49,476 bases of DNA from Flavobacteriales bacterium. Lineage in GTDB: Bacteria > Bacteroidota > Bacteroidia > Flavobacteriales_D > Sanyastnellaceae. Positions 3-49,476 of the stretch are shown here, piece by piece. The first letter of the stretch is position 1. Each line of letters opens with the position of its first letter. Under the pieces are notes generated by a model. That model searched no databases. It had not been told where the DNA came from and was given only the letters and a program-made list of their open reading frames with translations. The stretch lies in contig NYSX01000027.1 in assembly GCA_002683345.1 (NCBI GenBank), forward strand, positions 1-49,476, given 5' to 3'. A program made the position numbers and the translations under genes.

Positions 3-3000
3 GACGATGGTTCTTGCACGTACCCCGCTGACGCGACCTTGGATTGCGACGGCAACTGTGTGAACGATGCCGACGGCGATGGCATTTGCGACGAAAATGA
101 AATCCTCGGTTGCACCTTGGAAGCAGCGTGCAACTACGACCCAAGTGCGACAGACAACGACGGCTCTTGTGCCCAGGAAGACGCGGCGGGCGTTTGTGGA
201 GGTTCTTGTCAAGCTGACGACGATGCGGATGGCATCTGCGACGACATCGATGATTGCGTCGGCGCGCTTGATGAGTGTGGTGTTTGCAACGGCGATGGCA
301 TCGCTGACGGTGCCTGCGACTGCGACGGGAACGTTCTTGACGAGTGTGGCGTTTGTGGAGGTGACGGGTCTTCTTGCGCTGACTGTGCAGGCATCGCAAA
401 TGGAACTGCTGTTCTCGATGATTGTGGAGTTTGTAATCAAGCCTACATCTACAACTTCATTACCCACGTCCCCACCTATGTGGACAACGCAAATGCTTTG
501 ATTCCTGGTGTTGATTTTGATCCATCACAACAATTTGTTGTTTTGCCGGGTGATCCAGGCGATCCAAACTTTAACGCATCTTGCAGTGGTTGTACAGATA
601 GCACTGCTTGCAACTACGACAGCGATGCAACCATTGATGATGGTTCTTGCGAGCAAGAAGACGCTTTGGGCGTGTGCGGTGGCGACTGTGAGGCTGACGC
701 CGATGCCGATGGCATTTGTGACGACGTTGACGAGTGCGTCGGTCAACTCGACGAGTGCGGTGTTTGCAATGGCGACGGCAGCTCTTGCGCCGATCCTTGT
801 GCAGCTGCTGCAGCTGCCAGCGCGTACAGCTTGACGGTTGAATCTTCTCCAGCCGTGGGTGCGGGAGGTACAGTCTACCGTTTCTATGTGAACGCCCAGG
901 ACGCCACGGACAAAATTTCCGCGGTGTTTGGCAACGATCAGGCGCACCTGCTCATCAACACGCCTGCTGGCATCTTCAACAGCACGTTCAATGCGAGCTG
1001 GAGTGCATCGGGCATCAATGCGGCTTTCATTCCGCTCGTACCCGATTTGGTTGATGACAGCTATGCCACCATCAACTTGGATGGTCCAGCGTCAACTTCT
1101 GGCGTTGCAGCCGCAGCTGATCCTTCCATTGTGGAAGACGCTGCGTTGAGCCCCACCATCTCTGGATACTTCACGGCGGGAGGAACATCTCTTGATGTGA
1201 ACACGTTGACAGGTGGTTCATGGTATGTTCTGAACACTGCTGGCAACGCCTTGCCTGACGCGAACAACCGCTGGTTGATTGCGCAAATCACCACAACAGG
1301 TTCCATCTCTGGCCAAATCAACTACCAGGTCTTCCCACTCGGTGTGGGTGCGGACCAGGTTCAGGTCTCCATGCCGTTTGACGGTGCTGGCACCTTCGGC
1401 GGTGGTTCCGACATCGTTTGTGGCTGCATCGACGACACCGCTTGCAACTACAATGAGGACGCAACCAACGACGACGGCTCTTGCACGTACCAAACAGATC
1501 CTTTGTTGAACTGTGACGGCACTTGCATCAACGACGCCGACGGCGACGGTGTGTGCGACGAAAACGAAGTGTTGGGCTGCACCGCTGAGGCGGCATGCAA
1601 CTACAACCCAGCTGCGACAGACAACGACGGCTCTTGCGCTCAAAATGACCAATGCGGTGTTTGTGGCGGAGATAACTCAACATGTTCTGATTGCGCTGGG
1701 ATTCCAAATGGTACTGCAGTACTTGACGATTGTGGTGTTTGCAACTCTGCTTATATCTACAATTTCATTACCCACATTCCAGTTTACGTCGATAATGCAA
1801 ATGCGCTGATTCCCGGTGTGGACTACGATCCAGCAACCCAAATGGTTGTTTTGCCAGGAGACCCTGGCGACCCCAACTTTAATGCATCGTGCAGTGGTTG
1901 TACGGATGCTTCTGCATGCAACTTCGATGTTGACGCTACAATTGATGACGGTTCATGTCAGCAACTTGATGAGTGCGGTGTGTGTGGTGGAGCTGGCATC
2001 GCTGATGGCGCCTGCGACTGCGATGGCAACGCTCTCGATGCTTGTGGTGTTTGTGGTGGTGACGGCTCTTCTTGTGCGGGCATCGGCGTTGCAATCAGCG
2101 CTTGCTCAAGCTTTACAAGTGGATCTGCTGCAGCGTGGCCATTTGTGTTGACTGCGACTACCATTGCTGATGGCGCCAGTTCTCAGGAAGCGCAAACGAT
2201 GGTCATCAATGTGACCTCATTGCCAGCGGGAGCGCAATACCGCGTTTTCAAGACCACAGCGAATGGTGGTTCTTTCTTCGGAAATCCCCAAAACCTCGTT
2301 TTGGGCCAGAATACGGTAACGGTGTCTGCTGTTGGTTTCGACCGGGCAGTGAAGTTCCAATTCTCTGACGGGGACGTGGAATTTGATTTCTTGTCGATCA
2401 ACGATGAGGAGCGTGACGAATGCTACGCGGTGGATCCAGGAACGCCCATTTCTGAGTGCAATCAATTCGGAGCAGGTCCCAATGGCAACTGGCCACATGC
2501 TTTGACTTTGACCACTCCCGATGATCCAAGCAGCAACGCAGCCCAGACTTTGGTGTTGACTGTTGCTTCACTTCCTGAAGGCGGTGCAAACTACCGCGTG
2601 GCCAAGACAGTGGCCAACGGCAACTGGTTTAACGCCAATGCCCAGGCCCTTGCTTTGGGCGAGAATTCAATCACTGTTTCGGGTGTTTCTTTCGCACGCA
2701 CAGTGAAGATTCAGTTCTCAAGCGGTGCCGTTGGTGTCACTTCAATCGTGGCAAACGGTACAGAATTGGTCTGCGGTGCGGGTTGTACTGATGCAACTGC
2801 TTGCAACTATGATGCTGATGCGACCACTGACGACGGCTCATGTCTCCAAACAGACGAATGCGGAGTTTGTGGTGGTTCAGGTGTAGACGCGGATGCCGAT
2901 GGTATTTGCGACGACGTTGATGATTGCATTGGTGCTGTTGACGGTTGTGGCGTGTGCAACGGCGATGGTTCGACTTGCACAGGTTGTGCCGACCCTGCAG

Positions 3001-6000
3001 CCAGCAACTACGACGAAAACAACATTTTCGCTGACAATGGTCAGTGTGTGTACGCGACCACGTTCAACGTGGACATGAACTGCTTCGACAACGCTGGTGC
3101 CAGCGTGAATGGTGCAACGGAGTTCACTGAGGTGTTCGTGACTGGTCCTCTTTTGGGATGGCCTGCCAACGATGGCTACAATGCCCTCACTGACGACGAT
3201 GGCGATGGCATTTACTCAGTAACCCTCGACTTCCCTGCGGGCACCATCGAGTACAAGTACGCCATCAACGGTTTCGCCGATCAGGAAAACTTGGTTGACG
3301 ACATGCAGAACGGTGGCGATTGCGCTCCCGTGACGGATTACGCTGGTTACGCCAACCGTCAGGTGGCTGCGGGCGCAACGGCCGACGACACGTACGGCTC
3401 TTGCACTTCTTGCGCAGATCAAGTTGAGCCTGTGAACCTCACGTTCCAGGTGGACATGAACCAGTACGCCGAAGGATATGTCTATGGCGGTGTGTTCGTG
3501 AACGGCAGCTTTAACAACTGGTGCGGCGGTTGCAACCCCATGAACGACGACGATGCCGATGGCATTTGGACGTTGACAGTCAGCCTCTTGCCTGGCACCT
3601 ATGAGTACAAATTCACCCTTGACGGTTGGAACTACCAGGAGGAATTCGCGGGTGGTGAGTCTTGTACGACCACCATTGATGGCTACACCAACCGTTCGGT
3701 GACCCTCGAAGCTGAAACAACTTTGCCTGCAGTGTGCTGGGAGTCTTGCGACGTTTGTCCCGCCATCGAAGATGTGCTGGGTTGCATGGACGAAACGGCC
3801 AACAACTACAACCCAGACGCGACTGTCGAGCCTGAAAACGCTTGCTTGTACGATTTGACGTTGTCTGTCGACATCTCTCAGACGTCGTTCACGGGTGTGA
3901 CCCTCGCTGGGACATTCAACGGCTGGAACAACGGTTCCAACCCCATGGCTGACGACGACGGCGACGGCGTGTACAACATCACCGTTTCTGTGACTGCGGG
4001 TGCGCAGGAGTACAAGTTCTTGGGCAACGGCGATTGGGGCCTCGCAGAGAGCTTCGATGGCACAGAATCTTGCACCACTGATCCTGCCGAATTCGTGAAC
4101 CGCGTGGTTCTCGTCGAAGGACCGACTGTGGTGGAGACTGTCTGCTACAACAGCTGTTCAGCATGTGTTCCAAACGCGGTTCTCGGTTGTACTGATGCGA
4201 CTGCGAACAACTACAACGCTGATGCGGACACCGACGACGGTTCTTGCTTGTTCAACACCACGTTCAACGTGGACATGAACTGTGCTGGTGTGGATTTCTA
4301 CGAAGTGTTTGTGACTGGTCCTGTTTGGGGCTGGCCCGCCAACAGCGGATTCAACCAGTTGATCGATGACGATGGTGACGGCATCTACAGCGTGACCATC
4401 GAAACGCCTGCCGGCGACATTGAGTACAAGTATGGCATCAACGGATTCGCGGATCAAGAGAACTTGATCGACGACATGCAGAACGGTGCGTCTTGCGCTC
4501 CTGTGACAGATTACTTTGGGTTTGCCAACCGCCTCGTGGCTTCTGGCAGCACCACGAACGACACGTATGGCAGCTGCGAACCTTGTCCACAAGACGTGGA
4601 AGGTTGCATCGACGAGACGGCGTGCAACTACGACGAGACTGCCACGGTCCAGGCCTTTGGAGACGGTACATTGTCCTTTACCTGGACAACCATCGGTTCC
4701 TACGCTGGTGAAATTTCTTGGGACATCACAGATGCCGACGGCAACGTGGTGGCTTCTGGAGATGCCAACGCAGCTGTGGGTGGATCTGCGACCTTGCCTG
4801 CAGGCGATTACAGCTTCAACGGCTACGACAGCTATGGCGACGGATGGAACGGCTTTGTCCTCGGCATCACCGATGCGGGTTCAGGCAACGAATACAGCTT
4901 GACGCTTGATGACGGTTCAACCAACAGCGTGGCTGTTTCAGTCTCTGGGGCATCTACATGCACATACCCTGCGAACGAGCAGGTCGATTGTGACGGCAAT
5001 TGCGCCGATGGTGGAATTCTTTACCAGTTCGACATCAGTGACCAGTTCGGTGACGGCATGTGCTGCAGCTACGGAGAAGGTTCTTACACCATCTTGGTGG
5101 ACGGAGCGGAAGTCGCAACGGGTTCAGACTTCGGCGGCAGTGCTTCGCATGCCTTCTGCGCCCCAGCTGACGCATGTGTGTTGGTGGTCTTTGTGGCCGA
5201 CAACTACCCCGGTGAGCAGTCGTGGAGCTTGAGCGCCGACGGAACCCAAATCTTGGGTGAAGGCCTCGATGGTTCTACAGCCACTTACGGTGCTGGCGGA
5301 TGCGTGGGAGGTTGCTCCGACGAGACGGCTTGCAACTACGACGCGGATGCGGTGCTCGACTACGACGACGGATCCTGCACCTACATCGGTACCGGTGAGT
5401 GCGATTGCGACGGCAACGTCGAAGATGTGCTCGGTGAGTGCGGTGGTACTTGCACGGCAGACGAAGATGCGGACGGCATTTGTGACGACGTGGACGACTG
5501 CGTGGGCGCATACGACGATTGCGATGTGTGCAACGGTGACAACACTTCATGCGCAGGTTGCGATGGCATCCCAGGCAGCGGCACGGTCCTTGACGACTGT
5601 GGCGTGTGTGGCGGTGACAACAGCTCTTGCACGGGATGCTTGGACGAAACTGCCTGCAACTATGACGCTGACGCGACCATTCAAGGGTTCGTGACGGGAG
5701 ACATGGGGTCACTCCAAATTGACTTGACCGCAGGCTCATGGCCCGGTGAAATCTCTTGGGAACTTGATGGCGCCACATATGGCGCACCTGCGAGCGGCTC
5801 CTTCGATCTCGCACCAGGATTGTACACCATCACAGGTACAGATTCCTACGGTGACGGATGGAACGGTGCAGAGATGACCATTGTGGACGCTGGAAGCGGC
5901 ACTTCGTACAGCTTGATCGTGACTGAATCCACTGCTTCAGTGGAAGTGGAAGTGACTGCCGGCCTCGTGTCGACCTGTGACTTCTCATCTTGCTCTGGTT

Positions 6001-8909
6001 GCACCGACGAAACGGCGTGCAACTACGATCCAACTGCCTTGACCGACGACGGTTCTTGTGTGGCACCTGACGCCCTCACGGGTTGTGGTGACACCTGCCT
6101 CGACGGCGGTGTGTTGTACACGTTTGACATTGCTGACCAATACAGCGACGGCATGTGCTGCACTTACGGCGAAGGATCGTACACCATCTTGGTGGACGGC
6201 GACACGCTTGCCACAGGCGGCGACTTCGGAGCTTCTGCTTCAGAACGCTTCTGTGCACCTGCTGACGCTTGCGTTCAGTTGATCATGGTGGCCGACAACT
6301 ACCCAGGAGAGCAAACCTGGAGCTTCACCGCCGATGGCGTGGAACTCGCGGGCGCTGGATTGGACGGTTCGTCAGCGACGTACAACTTCGGCGGTTGTGT
6401 CGAGGGGTGTACGGATGCCATGGCGTGCAACTACAACATGGATGCGAACATCGAAGATGGAAGCTGCACCTACGCTCCTGAGTACTACGAGTGTGACGGC
6501 GAGACATGCCTCAACGACGCCGATGGCGACGGTGTGTGTGATGAACTCGAAGTTGAGGGCTGTGTGGTCCCAACGGCTTGTAACTACGTTGCAAGCGGCG
6601 TGACTGACCTCGTGCCTTGTGTGTACCCTGAGCCAGGCTACCTCTGCGACGGCACGTGTGACGGTGATGCGGATGGCGATGACATTTGCGACGCCAACGA
6701 AATCGTCGGATGTCAGGACAGCACGGCGTGCAACTACGACGCCACTGCAACCGATGCCGGCACTTGTGACTTCACAAGCTGCCTCGGATGCATGGACGAT
6801 GCGGCGTGCAACTACGACGCGGACGCCACTCAGGACGACGGTTCTTGCGACTACTGCTCATGTGCTGCCGATGCAGCTGGTGGACAGAACGGCTTCAACC
6901 TTTCTGTGGAGACCTACGCTGAAGGTGGCGTGTTTGGCACGACCACATACCGCGTGTACGTGACCACGCCAAACGAAACAGACTTTGTGTCTGCCATCGC
7001 TGGTGATGAGGTGAACCCATCTTACCTCCGCACGAGCACGAGCTTCTACCAGAACGCGCTCGGTGGTTTGACTGCGGACATGATCAACCCCTTGTTCTTC
7101 GGAGCCTTCCCAGAGCTCGAGTACGACAGCTGGTTGACCATCGGCATCGAATCTGCCCCAGTTGTGGGTGATGGCACTGCCGCCGTGACCTTGGCTCAGG
7201 CCGCAGGTGACACATGGGGCGCCGACTTCGAAGCAGGTCAAAACCTCGAGATGAACAGCTTCTTCGGCGGATCTTGGTTCACCACGAACCTCGTGAGCAA
7301 CGGTGTGGCTGGTGCTGACAAAAAGGTCTTGGTCGCTCAGTTGACGACCGACGGTACGTTGACCGGCCAGTTGTACGTCCAAGTCTTCCCTGAAGGCGTG
7401 GGTGCCAATGCAGAGTACTTGACGCTCAGCTTCGGAAGCAGCTCTTGCGGTTGCACCGACGAGTCGGCGTGCAACTACAACGCAGGCGCACAGTACGACG
7501 ACGGTTCTTGCTTCTACAACGAGCAGTTCTACACTTGCGAAGGCGTGTGTGAGAACGACGCGGACGGCGACGGTGTGTGTGACGAACTCGAAATTGCAGG
7601 CTGTCAGGATGCTGAGGCTTGCAACTACGACGAGACGGCCACCGACGACGACGGCAACTGTGAGTACGTGGAACCAACCTTGTTGCCAGGTGACGCACCT
7701 GCGTGCGGCCTCTTCTTCAGCGGATACGCGGAAGGTTCTAGCAACAACAAGTTCCTCGAGATCTTCAACCCAACCGACGCTCCCATCAGCTTGGACGGAT
7801 ACGCTTACCCGAACGTGAGCAACGCGCCAAACGTTCCTGGTGAGTATGAGTACTGGAACGAATTTGAGGCGGGTGCTTCTGTGGCCCCAGGTGACGTCTA
7901 CGTGATTGCCCATCCTTCAGCTGACCCAGCCATCTTGGCTGAGGCTGACGAGACGTTCAACTTCTTGTCGAATGGTGACGACGGATTCATCCTTGTGATG
8001 GGCACGCAGGATGATTTCATCCAAATCGACGCCATTGGTGACTGGAACGGCGATCCCGGATCTGGTTGGGACGTTGCAGGTGTGTCTGCAGGTACGAAGG
8101 ATCACAGCTTGATCCGCAAGTCTGACATCACCAACGGAAACGGTGGAGATTGGACAGCGTCTGCGGGTACGGACGCTGACAACAGTGAGTGGATTGTCCT
8201 CGACCAGAACGACTGGACGGGTCTCGGCAGCCACGACTTCACCGGCTCATGCGGCGGTGGCAACTTCGCCGTGGTCTACGACTGTGACGGCGTGTGCTTG
8301 AACGACGCGGACGGTGACGGTGTGTGTGACGAGTTGGAGATTGCCGGTTGTACCGACAGCGGTGCCTGCAACTACGACAGCGCGGCCACGGACGACGACA
8401 GCTCTTGTGAGTACCTCACTTGCGCTGGGTGTACGGATGACACTGCTTGCAACTATGACGGTTCTGCGACCATTGAGGACGGCTCTTGCACGTACCCAGA
8501 TGCATTCTACGACTGCGATGGCAACTGCTTGAACCCCTCATGCTACACCTACGCGGATGGGTCGACCATCTGTGAGGAGAACGTGATCCTCGGTTGCACT
8601 TACGAGGCGTCTTGCAACTTCGACATGGACGCGAACGTGGAAGACGGTCAGTGTGACTTCAGCTGCTTGTTGACCGGTTGCACCGATGCGACTGCAGTGA
8701 ACTACGACGCTGCTGCCACCACGGATGACGGTTCTTGCTTGTTCGTGGGTTGCACAGACCCAGAAGGACTCGACTACGATCCAACAGCCAACTACCCAGG
8801 TGGCTGTGACTACCCAGAAGCCTGCCCAGGTGACTTCACCGGCGACGGCGAGGTGGACGTCAACGACTTGCTTGACTTCTTCCAGCTCTGGGGCAACGTG
8901 TGCGAATAA
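3..8909 (+). CDS. Giant Cys/Asp-rich multidomain secreted protein, 5'-truncated by window edge (>=2968 aa)
   Basis: Frame stays open from base 3; the ORF-track start at 39 is a TTG in mid-repeat. Dozens of GCTDxxACNYDxxATxDDGSC and DxDxDGICDxxDxC (TSP3-like) repeats interspersed with several globular domains; ends [28 protein letters not shown]. Confidence 0.93.
3058..4580 (+). other. Four starch-binding/CBM20-48-like beta-sandwich domains inside the giant protein
   Basis: Four copies of FxVDMN...[45 protein letters not shown]; copies 1 and 4 are close relatives, 2 and 3 are more divergent. Confidence 0.6.
7705..8260 (+). other. Lamin-tail-like (LTD) domain within the giant protein
   Basis: [30 protein letters not shown]...[11 protein letters not shown]...[10 protein letters not shown] resembles bacterial LTD domains. 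Confidence 0.6.
8823..8906 (+). other. C-terminal C-x25-C EF-hand/DLL module (dockerin-like)
   Basis: [28 protein letters not shown] at the protein C-terminus; same spacing in two other proteins in the window. Confidence 0.7.
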
Positions 8910-8992: not shown

Positions 8993-10810
8993 TCAGCAGG
9001 CGATTGAAAAAAGAGAGAGGAGGATGAGCAAGTCCATGACCGACAAAGACCCATCGTTGTCGAGATCACCAAAGCATGCATCATTGATTGGCAAACACAT
9101 GGCTTCGGATGAATTCCAATGGCTGTTGGTCCCGCAAAGGGAAGATTGCAATGCTCCGATGGATGGAAGAAGGGAGTTGGAAACGGGCTGGCCAAAGAAA
9201 TCACGGCCTCCGTTGTTTTCGAGAAAATCGAGGGTGTCTGCACTCCCCGAAATAAGCGTTCCACTTTCCACTGCAGGACTGTTGGGTTGCAATTGAAAAT
9301 TCAGTGCCGACTGTAGGGGGATCATCGCAGAGTTTGAAACGAAAACCGGGTCCACCATCAATGCTCCTTCCAAGAGATCCTCGTCCAATTCAATCCGAGA
9401 GGCTGGGTAGAACAGATTGGTTCCGACGGAATACTGATTGTCTTGATCTTCGAGAAAACTCTGGAGCGTTTCACCGTCTGAAGCCATGCAGATGAGGTTG
9501 TTCAATATGTGCACATCTCCCGCCTCAGGCCACACATAGATTTCTGGGTTGAGCGTGGAATCAACATAGACCGTGTTGTTGTAGAAAAAAGTACCTACAC
9601 TTGGGCATCGAACAGGACCGCCACAGAAAGTGGAGACCCAAAAGATTTTGCCTTTCTTGTTCCACGGGAGCCCATCAGGATCCTCTCTGTAGCCATCGTT
9701 GATGCTGATGTTGTAGCGGTAGCCACAATTGATGTTGTCACCCAAAACCTCTGCGAAGCCTCCTTCGTTGTTGAAACTCAAGTTGTATTGGATGACCACA
9801 TCCTTGTTTCCGTAGTCGATGTGAGCACTGTAGGAATCCTGCGGGCCGTGTGCATTCATCAACCGGTTGTTTTGAATGAAAACGCGCTCACACTTGAAGG
9901 TCCATGTGCCGCTCCCGCGTTTCCACATTCGTTCGTCTACACTTGAACCTGTGTGATTATAAACGCAATGTTCTACCACAACGTCCCGACATCTGTTGGG
10001 GACAAAACCTGATCCCCCGGTGTGTGAAAAGGTGCATCCTTTTACGTGAATATTGGTGTTTTTGATGTTGTTGTTCCCAGCCAGCCCAAGTGCTTTAATC
10101 CAAAAGCCATAATGACCAGTCCGTGTGATTTCCGTGTCCTCGACGACAACATGATCGATGGTGTTGACATTGCCCAGAAGTGTATCTGATCGGTTTTCCA
10201 GCTTGATGCCATAGCCCAAGTGCTTGTTTTCTAGGTTAGTGGGGGTAGGGAAAATGTCGTGAATGACAACGCCCCTGACAACGATGCCCTCGATTGATGT
10301 AGCATCTGCTACCACCTTGATGCCGAATCGGACATTTTTTCCTGAGCCCCAATCGTTCGATTCGCCCAAGAAAGTGGGCAACTTCTTCACCACGCCATTG
10401 GAATCTAGGTGTGAGGCCTGGTTGGTGAACACGAGATTTTCAACAGTGATGAAACTGTCGTTGTAGATGAGCAGCGCAGATTGAAAGCCATCTCCATCAA
10501 GACTGGGCGCAGGCTGATCCTGAGATCCGAAATCACTGAGAACAATCGGTTGAGTTGGCGAACCTGAGCCCTTGACATGAAACATCCCGAGCCAATGCCC
10601 ACCGCGCTCAAAAAGGACCTGATCTCCTGGGGAAAAAGTCTGTTCGTTGAGCTTGGCAAGGGTCTGCCATGCTGAATTGGGAGCCGTGCCCAAAGCTTCG
10701 TCATTCCCGGTGGGAGAGATGTAATACGTGGATTGCGCCCATCCTGAAATGGATGTCATGGCGCACAGAAGAATCGGCAAGGATAACCGATACGACGAGA
10801 GGTAGAACAT
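8993..10810 (-). CDS. Secreted right-handed parallel beta-helix protein (polysaccharide lyase/hydrolase-like) with C-terminal C-x25-C module
   Basis: Start trimmed to MFYLSSYRLSLPILLCAMTSISGWAQ signal peptide; STYYISPTGNDEALGTAPNSAWQTLAKLN and repeated IxNxxIxxxxxG-type segments; ends CFGDLDNDGSLSVMDLLILLSLFSIAC*. Confidence 0.8.
   Translation of the reverse strand: MFYLSSYRLSLPILLCAMTSISGWAQSTYYISPTGNDEALGTAPNSAWQTLAKLNEQTFSPGDQVLFERGGHWLGMFHVKGSGSPTQPIVLSDFGSQDQPAPSLDGDGFQSALLIYNDSFITVENLVFTNQASHLDSNGVVKKLPTFLGESNDWGSGKNVRFGIKVVADATSIEGIVVRGVVIHDIFPTPTNLENKHLGYGIKLENRSDTLLGNVNTIDHVVVEDTEITRTGHYGFWIKALGLAGNNNIKNTNIHVKGCTFSHTGGSGFVPNRCRDVVVEHCVYNHTGSSVDERMWKRGSGTWTFKCERVFIQNNRLMNAHGPQDSYSAHIDYGNKDVVIQYNLSFNNEGGFAEVLGDNINCGYRYNISINDGYREDPDGLPWNKKGKIFWVSTFCGGPVRCPSVGTFFYNNTVYVDSTLNPEIYVWPEAGDVHILNNLICMASDGETLQSFLEDQDNQYSVGTNLFYPASRIELDEDLLEGALMVDPVFVSNSAMIPLQSALNFQLQPNSPAVESGTLISGSADTLDFLENNGGRDFFGQPVSNSLLPSIGALQSSLCGTNSHWNSSEAMCLPINDACFGDLDNDGSLSVMDLLILLSLFSIAC
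8996..9136 (-). other. Extended C-terminal module: CGx4Wx6C-x6-C-x25-C
   Basis: CGTNSHWNSSEAMCLPINDACFGDLDNDGSLSVMDLLILLSLFSIAC; same layout as the end of the 24740-25798 protein. Confidence 0.65.
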
Positions 10811-10889
10811 GAGGGTTCGGGTTTGGCCGGAAGTAGACTTCCTAAAGTACCTTGTCATGCAATTGTGTGAAACCGAGCAAACAATAGTT

Positions 10890-11861
10890 ATGACCATGAC
10901 AATGCGAATTTCAGGAGCGGTCGTTGCCAAAGCGGTGATGTCCATGGTGCCTCTCATGATGATGGCCTTCGTGGCGGTCAGCCAAGATCAAATTTCCTAC
11001 AATTGGGAAGGTTCGAAAGAGGGGTGGGTGCCCGCCAGTGAGAACAATTTGGGCTGCAACCTCATCGAACAGCCAGAAGCCATGGCCATGCGTGCATTCA
11101 ACACCACGCCTGTGATGAGAAGCGGTACGCTGAGTGAAAGTTTGGGCATTGATGCGAGCGAATACGACCGCATCCAAATCACGTTGAAGAACCCAACCAG
11201 TTCTGGCAATCCAAATGCGAGATTGTTCGCCTACGGACCCGAATCAAATGCGTTCATGTGTCATTGGAACGTCCCCGTGGATACGAGCATGACCGAATTC
11301 CAGACGTACACGCTGGACTTGACAACGCCTCCCAATGATGGAAGTGGGACGTTCGAGGGAGAAGTTGCTCGATTTGGTTGGAGAGGTCCTTGGGGTGTGG
11401 CGAATGGGGACACCATTTACTGGAAAAGTATGGTGATTTACAACTCTTTGGGGTGCACAAACGCCGATGCCTGCAACTATGAACCTTTGGCAGAAATTGA
11501 CAATGGCGCATGTGTGTTGGTGGGTGATTCCTGTGATGATGGAAACCCAGCGACCTTGGACGACATGATCAATGCAGATTGCCTGTGTTCTGGTCAGGTC
11601 GATGAAATCCGGGAACCAAATGCGCCATTCAATCTGGATTTGGGACCCAATCCAACCTCCAACGCCTTGGAGGCCCATTCTGCCATCCCGTTGGGGGCCA
11701 TTCGAATTTTGGATTCTCAAGGAAAGGTGTGCTTGGAACAACAAACCAGCGAGACGCGCATGGTTTTGGATGTTTCGAACTTTGTGCCGGGGCTGTATTT
11801 TTTTGAAGCCAACTCCAATCAAGCACGTGTGATTTCAAGGTTTATCGTGCAACGGCCTTGA
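10890..11861 (+). CDS. T9SS type A sorting-domain protein with jelly-roll (CBM-like) domain and one GCTNADACNYEP repeat
   Basis: Start trimmed to a signal-peptide-like N-terminus; C-terminus NLDLGPNPTSN...GLYFFEANSNQARVISRFIVQRP is T9SS-like. Confidence 0.75.
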   Translation: MTMTMRISGAVVAKAVMSMVPLMMMAFVAVSQDQISYNWEGSKEGWVPASENNLGCNLIEQPEAMAMRAFNTTPVMRSGTLSESLGIDASEYDRIQITLKNPTSSGNPNARLFAYGPESNAFMCHWNVPVDTSMTEFQTYTLDLTTPPNDGSGTFEGEVARFGWRGPWGVANGDTIYWKSMVIYNSLGCTNADACNYEPLAEIDNGACVLVGDSCDDGNPATLDDMINADCLCSGQVDEIREPNAPFNLDLGPNPTSNALEAHSAIPLGAIRILDSQGKVCLEQQTSETRMVLDVSNFVPGLYFFEANSNQARVISRFIVQRP

Positions 11862-24739: not shown

Positions 24740-25798
24740 ATGAAACCCCTTCCCTACCTCCTTGCCGCATGTTTTGCGTGCTTTTCTTTCGCCCTTGCTG
24801 CTCAAAATTTGACCGGTACATGTGATTTGTTCGAAGAGGGAACCAACGCCAGCTGGCCATACGTGTTGACGGCGACCTCTCCTGCAGATCCAGGGTCATC
24901 CGCAGAGCAAACCATGGAAATCAACGTTCTTTCCATGCCTGTCGGTGCCTCTTATCGCGTGGCAAAAACAGTCGCCAATGGAAATTGGTTTTTTGGTAAC
25001 GCCACAGCATTGTCTTTGGGATTGAATACGGTCTCAGTTGCAGCGGTGTCATTTGATCGCTCGGTCAAGTTCCAGTTTTCTTCGGGTGATGTTGAATTTG
25101 ATTTGTTGACCGTGAACGCTGAGGAATTGAGCTGCGCAAGCGACCTCGAAGGTGTGCCCATGGCCAATTGCGCCGCTTTTGATGTGGGACCAAATGCGAC
25201 TTGGCCTCATGTGATTACCGCAACAACCCCTGATGATCCTGGCAGTTCGTCAGCCCAAACCATGAACATTTTGGTGAGTGCCCTTCCAGCAGACGGAGCC
25301 AATTACCGGGTTGTCAAGACGGTGGCCAATGGGAATTGGAACAACGGAAATGCAGTGGCACTCAACATTGGCATGAATGAAGTCACGGTAAGCGAAGTCA
25401 GTTTTGCACGTTCGGTGAAGTTTCAATTCTCCAGCGGGGCGATTGAAGTGGCAGGCATCTCCATCAATGGAGCCTCCATTGCTTGTGAAGTTGAGCCTTG
25501 TGACGACCTTGATGCAGATGGCATTTGCGACGATGTGGACGATTGTGTGGGCGCTCTTGATGCCCTAGGCATTTGCAACGGCACTTGCTTGGAAGACTCA
25601 AATGCGAATGGGATTTGTGATGCTGATGAGGATTTTGTGGATCCGTCATCTTATTGTGGCCCCGGCACGACCTGGGATGCCGCCTCCGGTCAGTGCGTAG
25701 GGGCAGATACGTGCATGGGGGATTTTGATGGCGATGGGACAATCGCCACGTCAGATTTGCTCGGATTCCTTGCAATTTTCGGAACCACCTGCATTTGA
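24740..25798 (+). CDS. Secreted protein with two tandem WPxxLTATTP domains, TSP3-like Cys-rich linker and C-x25-C module
   Basis: Signal peptide MKPLPYLLAACFACFSFALAAQ; two ~115-aa repeats matching the domain pair in the giant protein; ends CMGDFDGDGTIATSDLLGFLAIFGTTCI*. Confidence 0.9.
   Translation: MKPLPYLLAACFACFSFALAAQNLTGTCDLFEEGTNASWPYVLTATSPADPGSSAEQTMEINVLSMPVGASYRVAKTVANGNWFFGNATALSLGLNTVSVAAVSFDRSVKFQFSSGDVEFDLLTVNAEELSCASDLEGVPMANCAAFDVGPNATWPHVITATTPDDPGSSSAQTMNILVSALPADGANYRVVKTVANGNWNNGNAVALNIGMNEVTVSEVSFARSVKFQFSSGAIEVAGISINGASIACEVEPCDDLDADGICDDVDDCVGALDALGICNGTCLEDSNANGICDADEDFVDPSSYCGPGTTWDAASGQCVGADTCMGDFDGDGTIATSDLLGFLAIFGTTCI
25655..25795 (+). other. Extended C-terminal module CGx4Wx6C-x5-C-x25-C
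   Basis: CGPGTTWDAASGQCVGADTCMGDFDGDGTIATSDLLGFLAIFGTTCI. Confidence 0.65.
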
Positions 25799-40369: not shown

Positions 40370-41809
40370 ATGATTCGAATGTCTCTCCTCGCATGTGCCT
40401 TGGTTGCAGCCACGTCCATGCACGCCCAAACCCCTTGTGTCGATGGTTTTGCCGGCGATTACCCATGTGAGGGTTTGGATTTGTTGTCGGTACGTTCGCT
40501 TGAAGAATTGGGGGGAGGCGCCAACGGCAACGATTGCTGGGGATGGGTCGACCCGGAGTCGGACCGAGAGTTTGTGCTCTACGGACGATCCAACGGCTTG
40601 TCTGTGGTGGAGGTCACGGACCCTGTGAATCCGGTGTTTGTGGCACGCGTCCCGACAGCGACGGTACAAAGCTTGTGGCGGGATGTCAAGGTGCACGACA
40701 ACCACGCATTCATCGTGAGTGAGGCGGCAGGTCACGGCATGCAGGTGGTGGACTTGACAGAGGTGCTCGACGTGGAATTGGCTCCCGCGACCTTGACGCC
40801 CGTGGCGGTGTACTTGGGCTTTGGGAATGCCCACAACATTGTCATGAATGAAGCTTCAGGTCATGCCTATGGGGTGGGGACCAACACCGCCGGTGGGGGG
40901 CTGCACGCTGTGGACGTGAATGATCCCACGTCACCCATGGTGGCAGGCACCTATGACGGTGCGTACACCCACGACGCGCAGGTTGTCATGTACGAAGGTC
41001 CAGACGCGGATCACGCGGGACAAGAAATCGCGTTTTGTTTCAACGGCAGCGCCGGCGTGGCCATTGTCGATGTGACGGACAAAACGGACATGCAACTCGT
41101 CTCATCTTTCAACTACACGCAATCGGCGTACACCCACCAGGGGTGGCTGAACGAGGACCAAACCATGGTCTACTTCAACGATGAATTGGACGAGCAGGGA
41201 TTTGGCAACGGCACCAGGACGTACATCGCGGACGTCAGCGACCTGGACAACCCTGTGGTGTTGGGCTTTTATGAAGCGGACAACACGTCCGTCGACCACA
41301 ACCTCTACCTCCGAGGAAACAAGGTGTATGCGTCCAATTACATGAGTGGGCTGCGGGTCTCCACGATTTTGCCCAACGGCAACCTCGAACCGTATGCGCA
41401 CTTCGATGTGCGTCCCGACTCGGACACCACGTCGTTCTATGGCACGTGGAGCAACTATCCCTACTTCCCCAGTGGCAACATCGCCATCTCTTGCCGAGGG
41501 GTGGGGTTGTTCATGGTGTCGGACCCCAACTTTGTGCCGACCGCGGTGTCGGAGTCGCTTCCTGCGGGGGAGACCTTGGATGTGTATCCCAACCCTGCAC
41601 GTGGCGCGGTAACCTTGTCAGGCATGGGTTCGGCGGAGCGCATGCGGCTGTTGAATTTGGTCGGCAAGGAAGTGCGCCCTTGGCAACGCGTCCCTGGTTT
41701 GCAAGGACTGAATGTCGATGTGTCCGACCTCGGCGAAGGCATCTACTTCATTCAAGCGGAGACCGGGACAGGGGTGCTGCGCACCACGCGCTTGGTCGTC
41801 CAGAAGTAA
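40370..41809 (+). CDS. Choice-of-anchor B family protein with T9SS type A sorting domain
   Basis: NDCWGWVDPESDREFVLYGRSNGLSVVEVTDPVNPVFVARVP...; DVYPNPARGAVTL...GIYFIQAETGTGVLRTTRLVVQK. Confidence 0.9.
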   Translation: MIRMSLLACALVAATSMHAQTPCVDGFAGDYPCEGLDLLSVRSLEELGGGANGNDCWGWVDPESDREFVLYGRSNGLSVVEVTDPVNPVFVARVPTATVQSLWRDVKVHDNHAFIVSEAAGHGMQVVDLTEVLDVELAPATLTPVAVYLGFGNAHNIVMNEASGHAYGVGTNTAGGGLHAVDVNDPTSPMVAGTYDGAYTHDAQVVMYEGPDADHAGQEIAFCFNGSAGVAIVDVTDKTDMQLVSSFNYTQSAYTHQGWLNEDQTMVYFNDELDEQGFGNGTRTYIADVSDLDNPVVLGFYEADNTSVDHNLYLRGNKVYASNYMSGLRVSTILPNGNLEPYAHFDVRPDSDTTSFYGTWSNYPYFPSGNIAISCRGVGLFMVSDPNFVPTAVSESLPAGETLDVYPNPARGAVTLSGMGSAERMRLLNLVGKEVRPWQRVPGLQGLNVDVSDLGEGIYFIQAETGTGVLRTTRLVVQK

Positions 41810-48138: not shown

Positions 48139-49476
48139 ATGTTGCGGTTTGTCTTCATTTCTCTGTTTTCAGTGTTCTGCTGCCTTTCTGTTCAATCCCA
48201 AACGGATTGTACGAATCTATTTGACGGCGACGGTGACGGGACTGTGACAATCATGGACCTTTTGGGGTTCCTTACGGTTTTTGGAGATGCCGATTTGGAT
48301 GGGGATGGGGTGTGGGACAGCACGGACGCATGCATCCAAGACGCGGATGCCGATGGCATTTGTGACAACGTGGACGACTGTGTGCCCTACGACGTCAACG
48401 GCGACGTGGCTGTTACAGTCGTGGATCTTTTGGGGCTTCTTTTGGTTTTTGGAGATTCCGATTCGGATGGGGATGGGGTGTGGGACAGCGTGGACGAATG
48501 CTCGGATCTGGAAGCATGTAATTTTGCCCAGATACCGGCCGCACCTTGCTTTTATGACGGCGCTGATGTCAACGGCAATGGTTTGTGTGACGATGACGAA
48601 GTGACCGGCTGCACCATTTCTGCAGCGTGCAACTACGATCCAGACGCCACCATCAACGACGGCTCATGTGCCGAACTTGATGCGTGCGGAATCTGCGGCG
48701 GTGACAACAGCTCATGCACAGGTTGCTCCGATGCTTCGGCATGCAACTACAACGAAGACACCATATTCGACGACGGCTCATGTGCCGAATTTGATGGGTG
48801 CGGCATCTGCGGTGGCCCTGGTGCCATTTACGAGTGTGGATGTGCGGACATCCCCGAAGGAGACTGCGACTGCGACGGAAACCAGCTTGATGCGCTTGGT
48901 GATTGTGGCGGGGACTGCGCAGCGGACGCCGATGCCGATGGCATCTGTGACGACGTAGATGACTGCGTTGGCGAACTCGACGAGTGCAGCATTTGCAACG
49001 GTCCTGGTGCCATTTACGAGTGTGGCTGTTCTGACATCCCAGAAGGAGACTGCGACTGCGACGGCAACCAGCTCGACGCCTTGGGCGTGTGTGGCGGGGA
49101 CTGCGCGGCAGACGCCGATGCCGATGGCATCTGTGACGACGTGGACGAGTGCGTTGGTGAACTCGACGAGTGCGGTGTCTGCAACGGACCCGGCGCCATC
49201 TATGAGTGTGGCTGTTCTGACATCCCTGAAGGAGACTGCGACTGCGACGGCAACCAGCTCGACGCCTTGGGCGTGTGTGGCGGGGACTGCACGGCGGACG
49301 TCGATGCAGATGGCATCTGTGACGACGCGGACGGCTGCGTTGGCGAACTCGACGAGTGCGGTGACTGCAACGGACCGGGCGCTATTTACGAGTGTGGCTG
49401 TTCTGACATCCCTGAAGGAGACTGCGACTGCGACGGCAACCAGCTCGACGCCTTGGGCGTGTGTGGCGGGGACTGC
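48139..49476 (+). CDS. Second Cys/Asp-rich secreted repeat protein, 3'-truncated by window edge (446 aa visible)
   Basis: ATG at 48139 opens MLRFVFISLFSVFCCLSVQSQTDCTNLFDGDGDGTVTIMDLLGFLTVFGDADLDGDGVWD...; frame is open to the last codon; not in the supplied ORF track (no stop within window). Confidence 0.92.
   Translation, partial: MLRFVFISLFSVFCCLSVQSQTDCTNLFDGDGDGTVTIMDLLGFLTVFGDADLDGDGVWDSTDACIQDADADGICDNVDDCVPYDVNGDVAVTVVDLLGLLLVFGDSDSDGDGVWDSVDECSDLEACNFAQIPAAPCFYDGADVNGNGLCDDDEVTGCTISAACNYDPDATINDGSCAELDACGICGGDNSSCTGCSDASACNYNEDTIFDDGSCAEFDGCGICGGPGAIYECGCADIPEGDCDCDGNQLDALGDCGGDCAADADADGICDDVDDCVGELDECSICNGPGAIYECGCSDIPEGDCDCDGNQLDALGVCGGDCAADADADGICDDVDECVGELDECGVCNGPGAIYECGCSDIPEGDCDCDGNQLDALGVCGGDCTADVDADGICDDADGCVGELDECGDCNGPGAIYECGCSDIPEGDCDCDGNQLDALGVCGGDC
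48817..49476 (+). repeat. 186-bp (62-aa) tandem repeat, 3+ full copies then truncated
   Basis: GCC-ATT/ATC/TAT of GPGAIYECGC recur at 48821, 49007, 49193, 49379: exactly 186 bp apart each time. Confidence 0.95.

Follow-up and report, generated by a model that had tools for sequence, protein, structure and literature searches.

The window analyzed here, a 49,476-bp stretch of DNA, is one contig (C28) of the draft genome of an uncultured marine Flavobacteriales bacterium (1.85 Mb, 100 contigs, 73% complete). Three of its genes encode proteins that end in a short module in which two cysteines bracket 25 residues (Table 1). Translation places these tails exactly where the initial annotation had put them and bears out the geometry it described: the cysteines of each pair lie 26 positions apart in all three proteins, and the second cysteine is either the C-terminal residue or one residue before it. 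A stop codon directly follows each tail. The likeness of the three tails is not a chance resemblance, since they match the module profile with E values of 1e-11 to 1e-13 and dozens more copies are present in the same genome. This 28-column profile was built from 16 tails, the three window tails being among these 16 rows, and a plain search with one window tail alone also returned dozens of genome matches.

The frame of the giant protein is open on its 5′ side, where the contig end cuts it, and contains long arrays of GCTDxxACNYDPxAxxDDGSC and thrombospondin type 3 (TSP3)-like Cys/Asp repeats without a Pfam match; such repeats are common to module-tailed and type A-tailed proteins. The beta-helix protein probably starts downstream of its frame start, at the signal peptide. 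These two genes are convergent, with only 83 bp between their ends at 8909 and 8993, and their modules face each other. Module-tailed genes are also arranged tail to tail at two other places in the same genome (contigs C5:1908-2141 and C56:10810-11259).

Two further proteins of the window carry the alternative tail, a type IX secretion system (T9SS) type A sorting domain. Both type A tails, previously called at 11861 and 41809, are real according to their TIGR04183/PF18962 family matches, and neither profile matched the window module proteins. The 48097 protein, which bears two N-terminal copies of the half-module, has lost its C terminus at the contig end. The minus strand of the window also encodes a dimethylarginine dimethylaminohydrolase of the eukaryotic-type Pfam family PF19420 (28321-29391; E = 1e-98), adjoining arginyl-tRNA synthetase.

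Table 1. Module tails, type A tails, and their parent proteins in the window
Feature	Coordinates	Strand	Evidence
Giant protein, at least 2968 aa, parent of the 8823-8906 tail	3-8909	+	CBM48/AMPK1_CBM and lamin-tail-like domains, repeats
Single dockerin-like half-module (C-x25-C) at the C terminus of the giant protein (Cys-rich repeats, CBM48)	8823-8906	+	Translation; profile match, E 1.1e-13
Beta-helix protein, 654-aa open frame, parent of the 8996-9076 tail	8993-10957	-	Open frame and translation
C-terminal single half-module CFGDLDNDGSLSVMDLLILLSLFSIAC (C-x25-C, last residue Cys) of the beta-helix protein	8996-9076	-	Translation; profile, E 2.2e-11
Lead-in CGTNSHWNSSEAMC, Cys-bracketed, hairpin-like, before the 8996-9076 half-module, where the first dockerin half would be	9095-9136	-	Translation
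Alternative tail of the 10809-11861 protein, a T9SS type A sorting domain	11646-11852	+	TIGR04183, 5.3e-8; PF18962, 2.6e-8
24740 protein, secreted, signal peptide, 352 aa, parent of the 25712-25795 tail	24740-25798	+	Open frame and translation
Lead-in CGPGTTWDAASGQC before the 25712-25795 half-module	25655-25696	+	Translation; model: beta hairpin, then module helix (pLDDT 76, pTM 0.41)
C-terminal single half-module CMGDFDGDGTIATSDLLGFLAIFGTTCI (C-x25-C) of the 24740 protein	25712-25795	+	Translation; profile, E 1.1e-12
T9SS type A sorting domain of the choice-of-anchor B protein (TIGR04312) 40370-41809	41582-41803	+	Family profile match
N-terminal-class half-module of the 48097 protein, directly behind its signal peptide	48223-48288	+	Profile, E 3.2e-6
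Second N-terminal half-module of the 48097 protein	48385-48453	+	Profile, E 4.5e-5

Extent of the module and its relation to dockerins

Across the genome, a profile search combined with reading of the surrounding frames yielded 51 proteins that end in the module, 0 to 5 residues before the stop codon, a number about equal to that of T9SS type A tails in the same genome (51 matches). A tandem pair is present in 25 of these 51 C-terminal modules, with the consensus CPxDLNGDGxVxVxDVLxxLxxFGCxxxCxxDxDGDGxVxVxDxLxxLxxFGxxC, and a single half in the other 26, including the three window tails. Several single modules are preceded by a CGxGTxWDxxTxxC lead-in, which that of the beta-helix protein resembles, and others by GCTxxxAxNYxPxAxxDDGSC repeats. 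The C-x25-C spacing within 6 residues of the end occurs in 41 of the 51 module tails; it is absent from all 50 type A tails compared and present in 5 of 319 other open frames. The C-terminal bias that the initial annotation had proposed to test stands, with 51 copies at the extreme end, but the position of the module is not exclusively terminal, since Cys-poor relatives are found directly behind signal peptides as well. Approximately eight more proteins (among them proteins on contigs C85, C55, C77, C50, and C58 and the window 48097 protein) carry a weaker, mostly Cys-poor module at or near the N terminus, mostly just after the signal peptide, and a type A tail is absent from those whose end is known.

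The conserved positions of the module are mostly structural (cysteines, aspartate loop ligands, leucines, and the FG pair), and the remaining positions vary. Judging from the sequence, in which loop ligands D1, N/D3, D5, and D12 are conserved, we infer that the module binds calcium through EF-hand-type loops, and the cysteine pair of each loop probably forms a disulfide bond.

The initial annotation had likened the tails to one half of a dockerin, and this comparison proved right, as about half of the modules in the genome are full two-half dockerins in both sequence and predicted fold. In sequence searches of the PDB, the best match was the type II dockerin from Bacteroides cellulosolvens Cel48 (2y3n_B); the tandem profile matched over its whole length with an E value of 2.3e-6, and the single profile gave 3.6e-9. 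A tandem tail from a related genome was modeled with AlphaFold2 (pLDDT 88, pTM 0.73) and used in a Foldseek search of the PDB, in which dockerins accounted for 31 of 32 matches, the best again being 2y3n_B (TM score, 0.84; root mean square deviation, 1.0). Based on these sequence and predicted-fold matches, the tandem form is a dockerin fold to which two pairs of cysteines have been added, and the window tails correspond, by sequence, to half of it. The model of the 24740 tail shows a beta hairpin followed by a helix at low confidence (pTM 0.41), and the fold search with it was uninformative.

Existing dockerin families capture the module in part. A few tandem copies pass the gathering score of Pfam PF00404 (one at 35.6 versus 22.9), most remain below it, and the window tails fall below it as well. 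The NCBIfam family NF041540, named "GC-type dockerin domain-anchored protein," was matched by 19 of 19 tandem tails (full length among the matches listed). Among the scores listed, one isolated tandem tail passed its cut-off of 29, at 30.4; the 21 full-length tandem proteins scanned scored 28.7 at most. This family also matched 15 of 21 single tails, weakly, and the one such match listed covers just its second half; the window module proteins gave no NF041540 match at an E value of 1 or better. The initial annotation had named a hit to an already characterized sorting or dockerin family as evidence against its reading, and that is partly what was found, since NF041540 is a curated dockerin family and is matched by the tandem form; most copies nevertheless lie under the cut-off, and the half-module falls short of it. 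In the literature that we searched, we found neither the family name nor a paper describing these tails.

Like the module, dockerins of the PF00404/2y3n_B kind consist of two repeats of an EF-type calcium loop and a helix, and are carried by secreted proteins. The module differs in that cysteine pairs bracket its halves, half of its copies are single-half, no cohesin is recognizable, its carriers are not a cellulolytic set, and its host has a T9SS. NF041540 shares the C-terminal position, and its name already implies anchoring, whereas module copies are mostly under its cut-off. Similar Cys-containing dockerin-like tails occur in Planctomycetes, which are not known to have a T9SS.

A search for the classical partner with the cohesin profile PF00963 gave no match in the same genome (a 73% complete draft) or in five congeners with 45 to 55 modules each. 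Within the window's family, cohesin-like matches were found in 2 of 30 module-rich genomes versus 9 of 21 module-poor genomes and do not track module number across the family. A classical cohesin partner is therefore not recognizable where modules are most abundant; module-bearing genomes may hold a very divergent cohesin.

Exchange between the module and type A tails

Known T9SS tails are of types A, B, and C (PMC10202324, PMC9936825, PMC12618676), and T9SS-dependent proteins without a recognized C-terminal domain (CTD) have also been reported (PMC9936825). The type A CTD is an Ig-like beta-sandwich of about 75 to 100 residues that is read by PorV (PMC12618676). It resembles the module in being the extreme C-terminal domain of Sec-exported proteins and in being borne by the same protein bodies. 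Unlike this beta-sandwich, the module is 28 to 57 residues long and helical, with calcium loops and cysteine pairs, and is unrelated to it in sequence. Types B (TIGR04131; 150 to 235 aa) and C (cl41395, ChiA; about 100 aa) show that the T9SS takes more than one tail family, and neither type B nor the type C/ChiA-type gave an NCBIfam match in the module tails scanned.

The same genome contains paralogs whose bodies are 50 to 62% identical over 345 to 829 residues, one with the module and the other with a type A tail; in pairs that are up to 62% identical, the main difference is the tail. With the Cys-rich repeats masked, a relative with a type A tail was found at an E value of 1e-10 or lower for 26 of the 51 module proteins, in some cases through a single shared domain. 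The best in-genome pair belongs to an FG-GAP/ASPIC family, for which we collected 80 homologs from Flavobacteriales draft genomes with the protein body as the query. After leaving out 9 truncated homologs and 1 interrupted by a run of N, 62 homologs with readable ends had type A tails and 8 had dockerin-like tails (7 tandem, 1 single); no readable end lacked both. Strongly supported branches of the maximum-likelihood tree force at least four tail changes in this family, and its single-tailed member (L155) is nested among type A proteins. In four of the drafts consulted (L144, L188, L201, and L204), labeled Euryarchaeota or Chryseobacterium gleum, the encoded relatives of this family are typical of Flavobacteriales, and it looks as if these labels are wrong or the bins are contaminated.

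A second family, with 23 type A tails, 7 tandem tails, 2 single tails, and none without a tail, adds two more changes, bringing the trees of both families together to at least six independent tail switches. It includes two adjacent paralogs (G480:C3:52577-55249, L241), one with a type A tail and the other with a single dockerin-like tail, which are a snapshot of tail exchange after duplication. Over both families, approximately 102 members with readable ends, a count that includes a few type A tails truncated where a contig ends, comprise 85 type A tails, 17 dockerin-like tails, and none with neither; type A tails were called here with a profile derived from those of the window's genome. The choice-of-anchor B proteins (TIGR04312) offer a further case, as the window member ends in a type A tail and two paralogs (contigs C98 and C19; L048 and L076) end in tandem modules. 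The same protein body is thus found with the module and with the other sorting tail in two families and in this additional one.

None of the 78 tailed proteins in related loci bears both tails, and none of the 51 modules coincides with a type A place in the genome. The mutual exclusivity with TIGR04183 that the initial annotation had proposed to test holds (0 of 78), but is weak evidence by itself because both tails require the C terminus. We therefore downgraded it as the main evidence in favor of the tail-exchange trees. Tail exchange indicates the same evolutionary niche rather than the same destination, and a swap could change where a protein is delivered.

Distribution and possible role of the module

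A survey of 395 genomes of the class, in which a per-genome count of 16 is a lower bound, revealed strong multiple module matches only in the taxonomic family of the window; elsewhere, matches were few and mostly weak. Among 61 genomes of this family, the number of module matches ranged from 0 to 74 per genome, with 45 to 56 in the same genus, 30 to 74 in many genera, and 0 to 2 in the genera g219 and g233; g1, g3, g220, and g225 are among the module-rich genera. Type A tails were present in all 61 genomes. A trade-off between the numbers of modules and type A tails was considered and set aside, as the correlation was not significant (Spearman, -0.22; P = 0.09; 61 genomes). First-look candidates stood in for type A tails in this comparison, as a type A count of 78 per genome is a lower bound, which limits the comparison.

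Because the exchange is recurrent, the terminal position is fixed, and relatives without a tail are lacking, the module is probably a C-terminal sorting or anchoring tag that functionally replaces the type A tail. The sorting, anchoring, or docking role suggested in the initial annotation is strengthened by this repeated exchange. We infer a receptor and an export route for module-tailed proteins along the following lines. A compact dockerin-fold domain or half-domain, with one or two EF-hand-type calcium loops that are each bracketed by cysteines, would form its disulfide when the Sec-exported protein reaches the periplasm. The folded tag would then be read by an outer membrane or surface receptor, fixing the destination of the secreted protein. 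It would do the same kind of job as the type A CTD and be interchangeable with it over evolution. The leading guess for the receptor would be a component of the T9SS exit route (PorV or a PorP/SprF-type shuttle, both families being present) rather than a cohesin. Such a T9SS-linked reader is favored by the fact that a secretion signal is replaced one for one on proteins with paralogs that use the T9SS, and export of module-tailed proteins by the T9SS itself can tentatively be entertained. The dockerin or half-dockerin might then be a fourth kind of T9SS signal, a calcium-loaded helical tag read instead of a beta-sandwich CTD, a proposal that we put forward with reserve. With similar caution, this signal could be used for a large part of the secretome in one marine Flavobacteriales family.

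Dockerins elsewhere are docking domains and not secretion domains. Docking is favored by the N-terminal copies of the module, since use at both the C and N termini points to position independence, and the approximately eight proteins that carry them, none with a type A tail among those of known end, fit poorly with a strictly C-terminal export signal. The module could be a genuine dockerin that binds a very divergent cohesin-like domain on a surface scaffold or outer membrane protein, in a noncellulosomal complex whose members cross the outer membrane by another route. The sequence and predicted fold are indeed those of dockerins, cohesin-like matches exist in some genomes of the window's family, and a non-cellulose cohesin-dockerin complex has been proposed in freshwater Planctomycetes (PMC6461901). 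Counting against such docking are the absence of PF00963 from the genome and its five module-rich congeners, the scarcity of cohesin-like matches in module-rich compared to module-poor genomes, and the single-half state of about half of the tails, including those of the window. We lean slightly toward the T9SS-linked reader, itself a tentative choice, over docking to a cohesin-like receptor, which we hold to be somewhat unlikely.

Alternatively, a module in place of the type A tail might retain the protein in the periplasm or envelope, inside the outer membrane, and the exchange would amount to a change of location. The module comes without any known T9SS signal family, and loss of the CTD is expected to block export. 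Among its carriers, however, are giant proteins with Cys-rich repeats and CBM domains as well as choice-of-anchor B proteins with T9SS-tailed paralogs, and relatives without either tail were not found, which argues that the module is not simply a remnant of CTD loss. Moreover, T9SS-dependent proteins may lack a recognizable CTD (PMC9936825), and retention appears unlikely overall. It is more improbable still that the module is a stability cap, i.e., a calcium- and disulfide-locked C-terminal plug against proteolysis that is read by nothing. Such a cap would agree with conservation that falls mostly on structural positions while others vary, but would leave unexplained the replacement of a sorting domain, the presence of one tail or the other in every family member checked, and the restriction of strong multiple matches to one family of the class.

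If the module is a sorting tag of the T9SS-linked kind, a dockerin-fold tail would explain one class of the T9SS-dependent proteins without a recognized tail (PMC9936825) and would provide a case of a dockerin working without a recognizable cohesin. Secretome prediction would also change for this marine Flavobacteriales family, in which module proteins are now read as signal-less.

With respect to the receptor, each of 40 genomes surveyed from the order encodes PorV and PorP/SprF family proteins. An expansion of PorV or PorP/SprF was rejected as a clue to the receptor, given that no excess was visible in the window's family among these 40 genomes. The genera g219 and g233, which are almost devoid of the module next to many relatives with dozens of copies, represent a natural contrast for finding the receptor gene.
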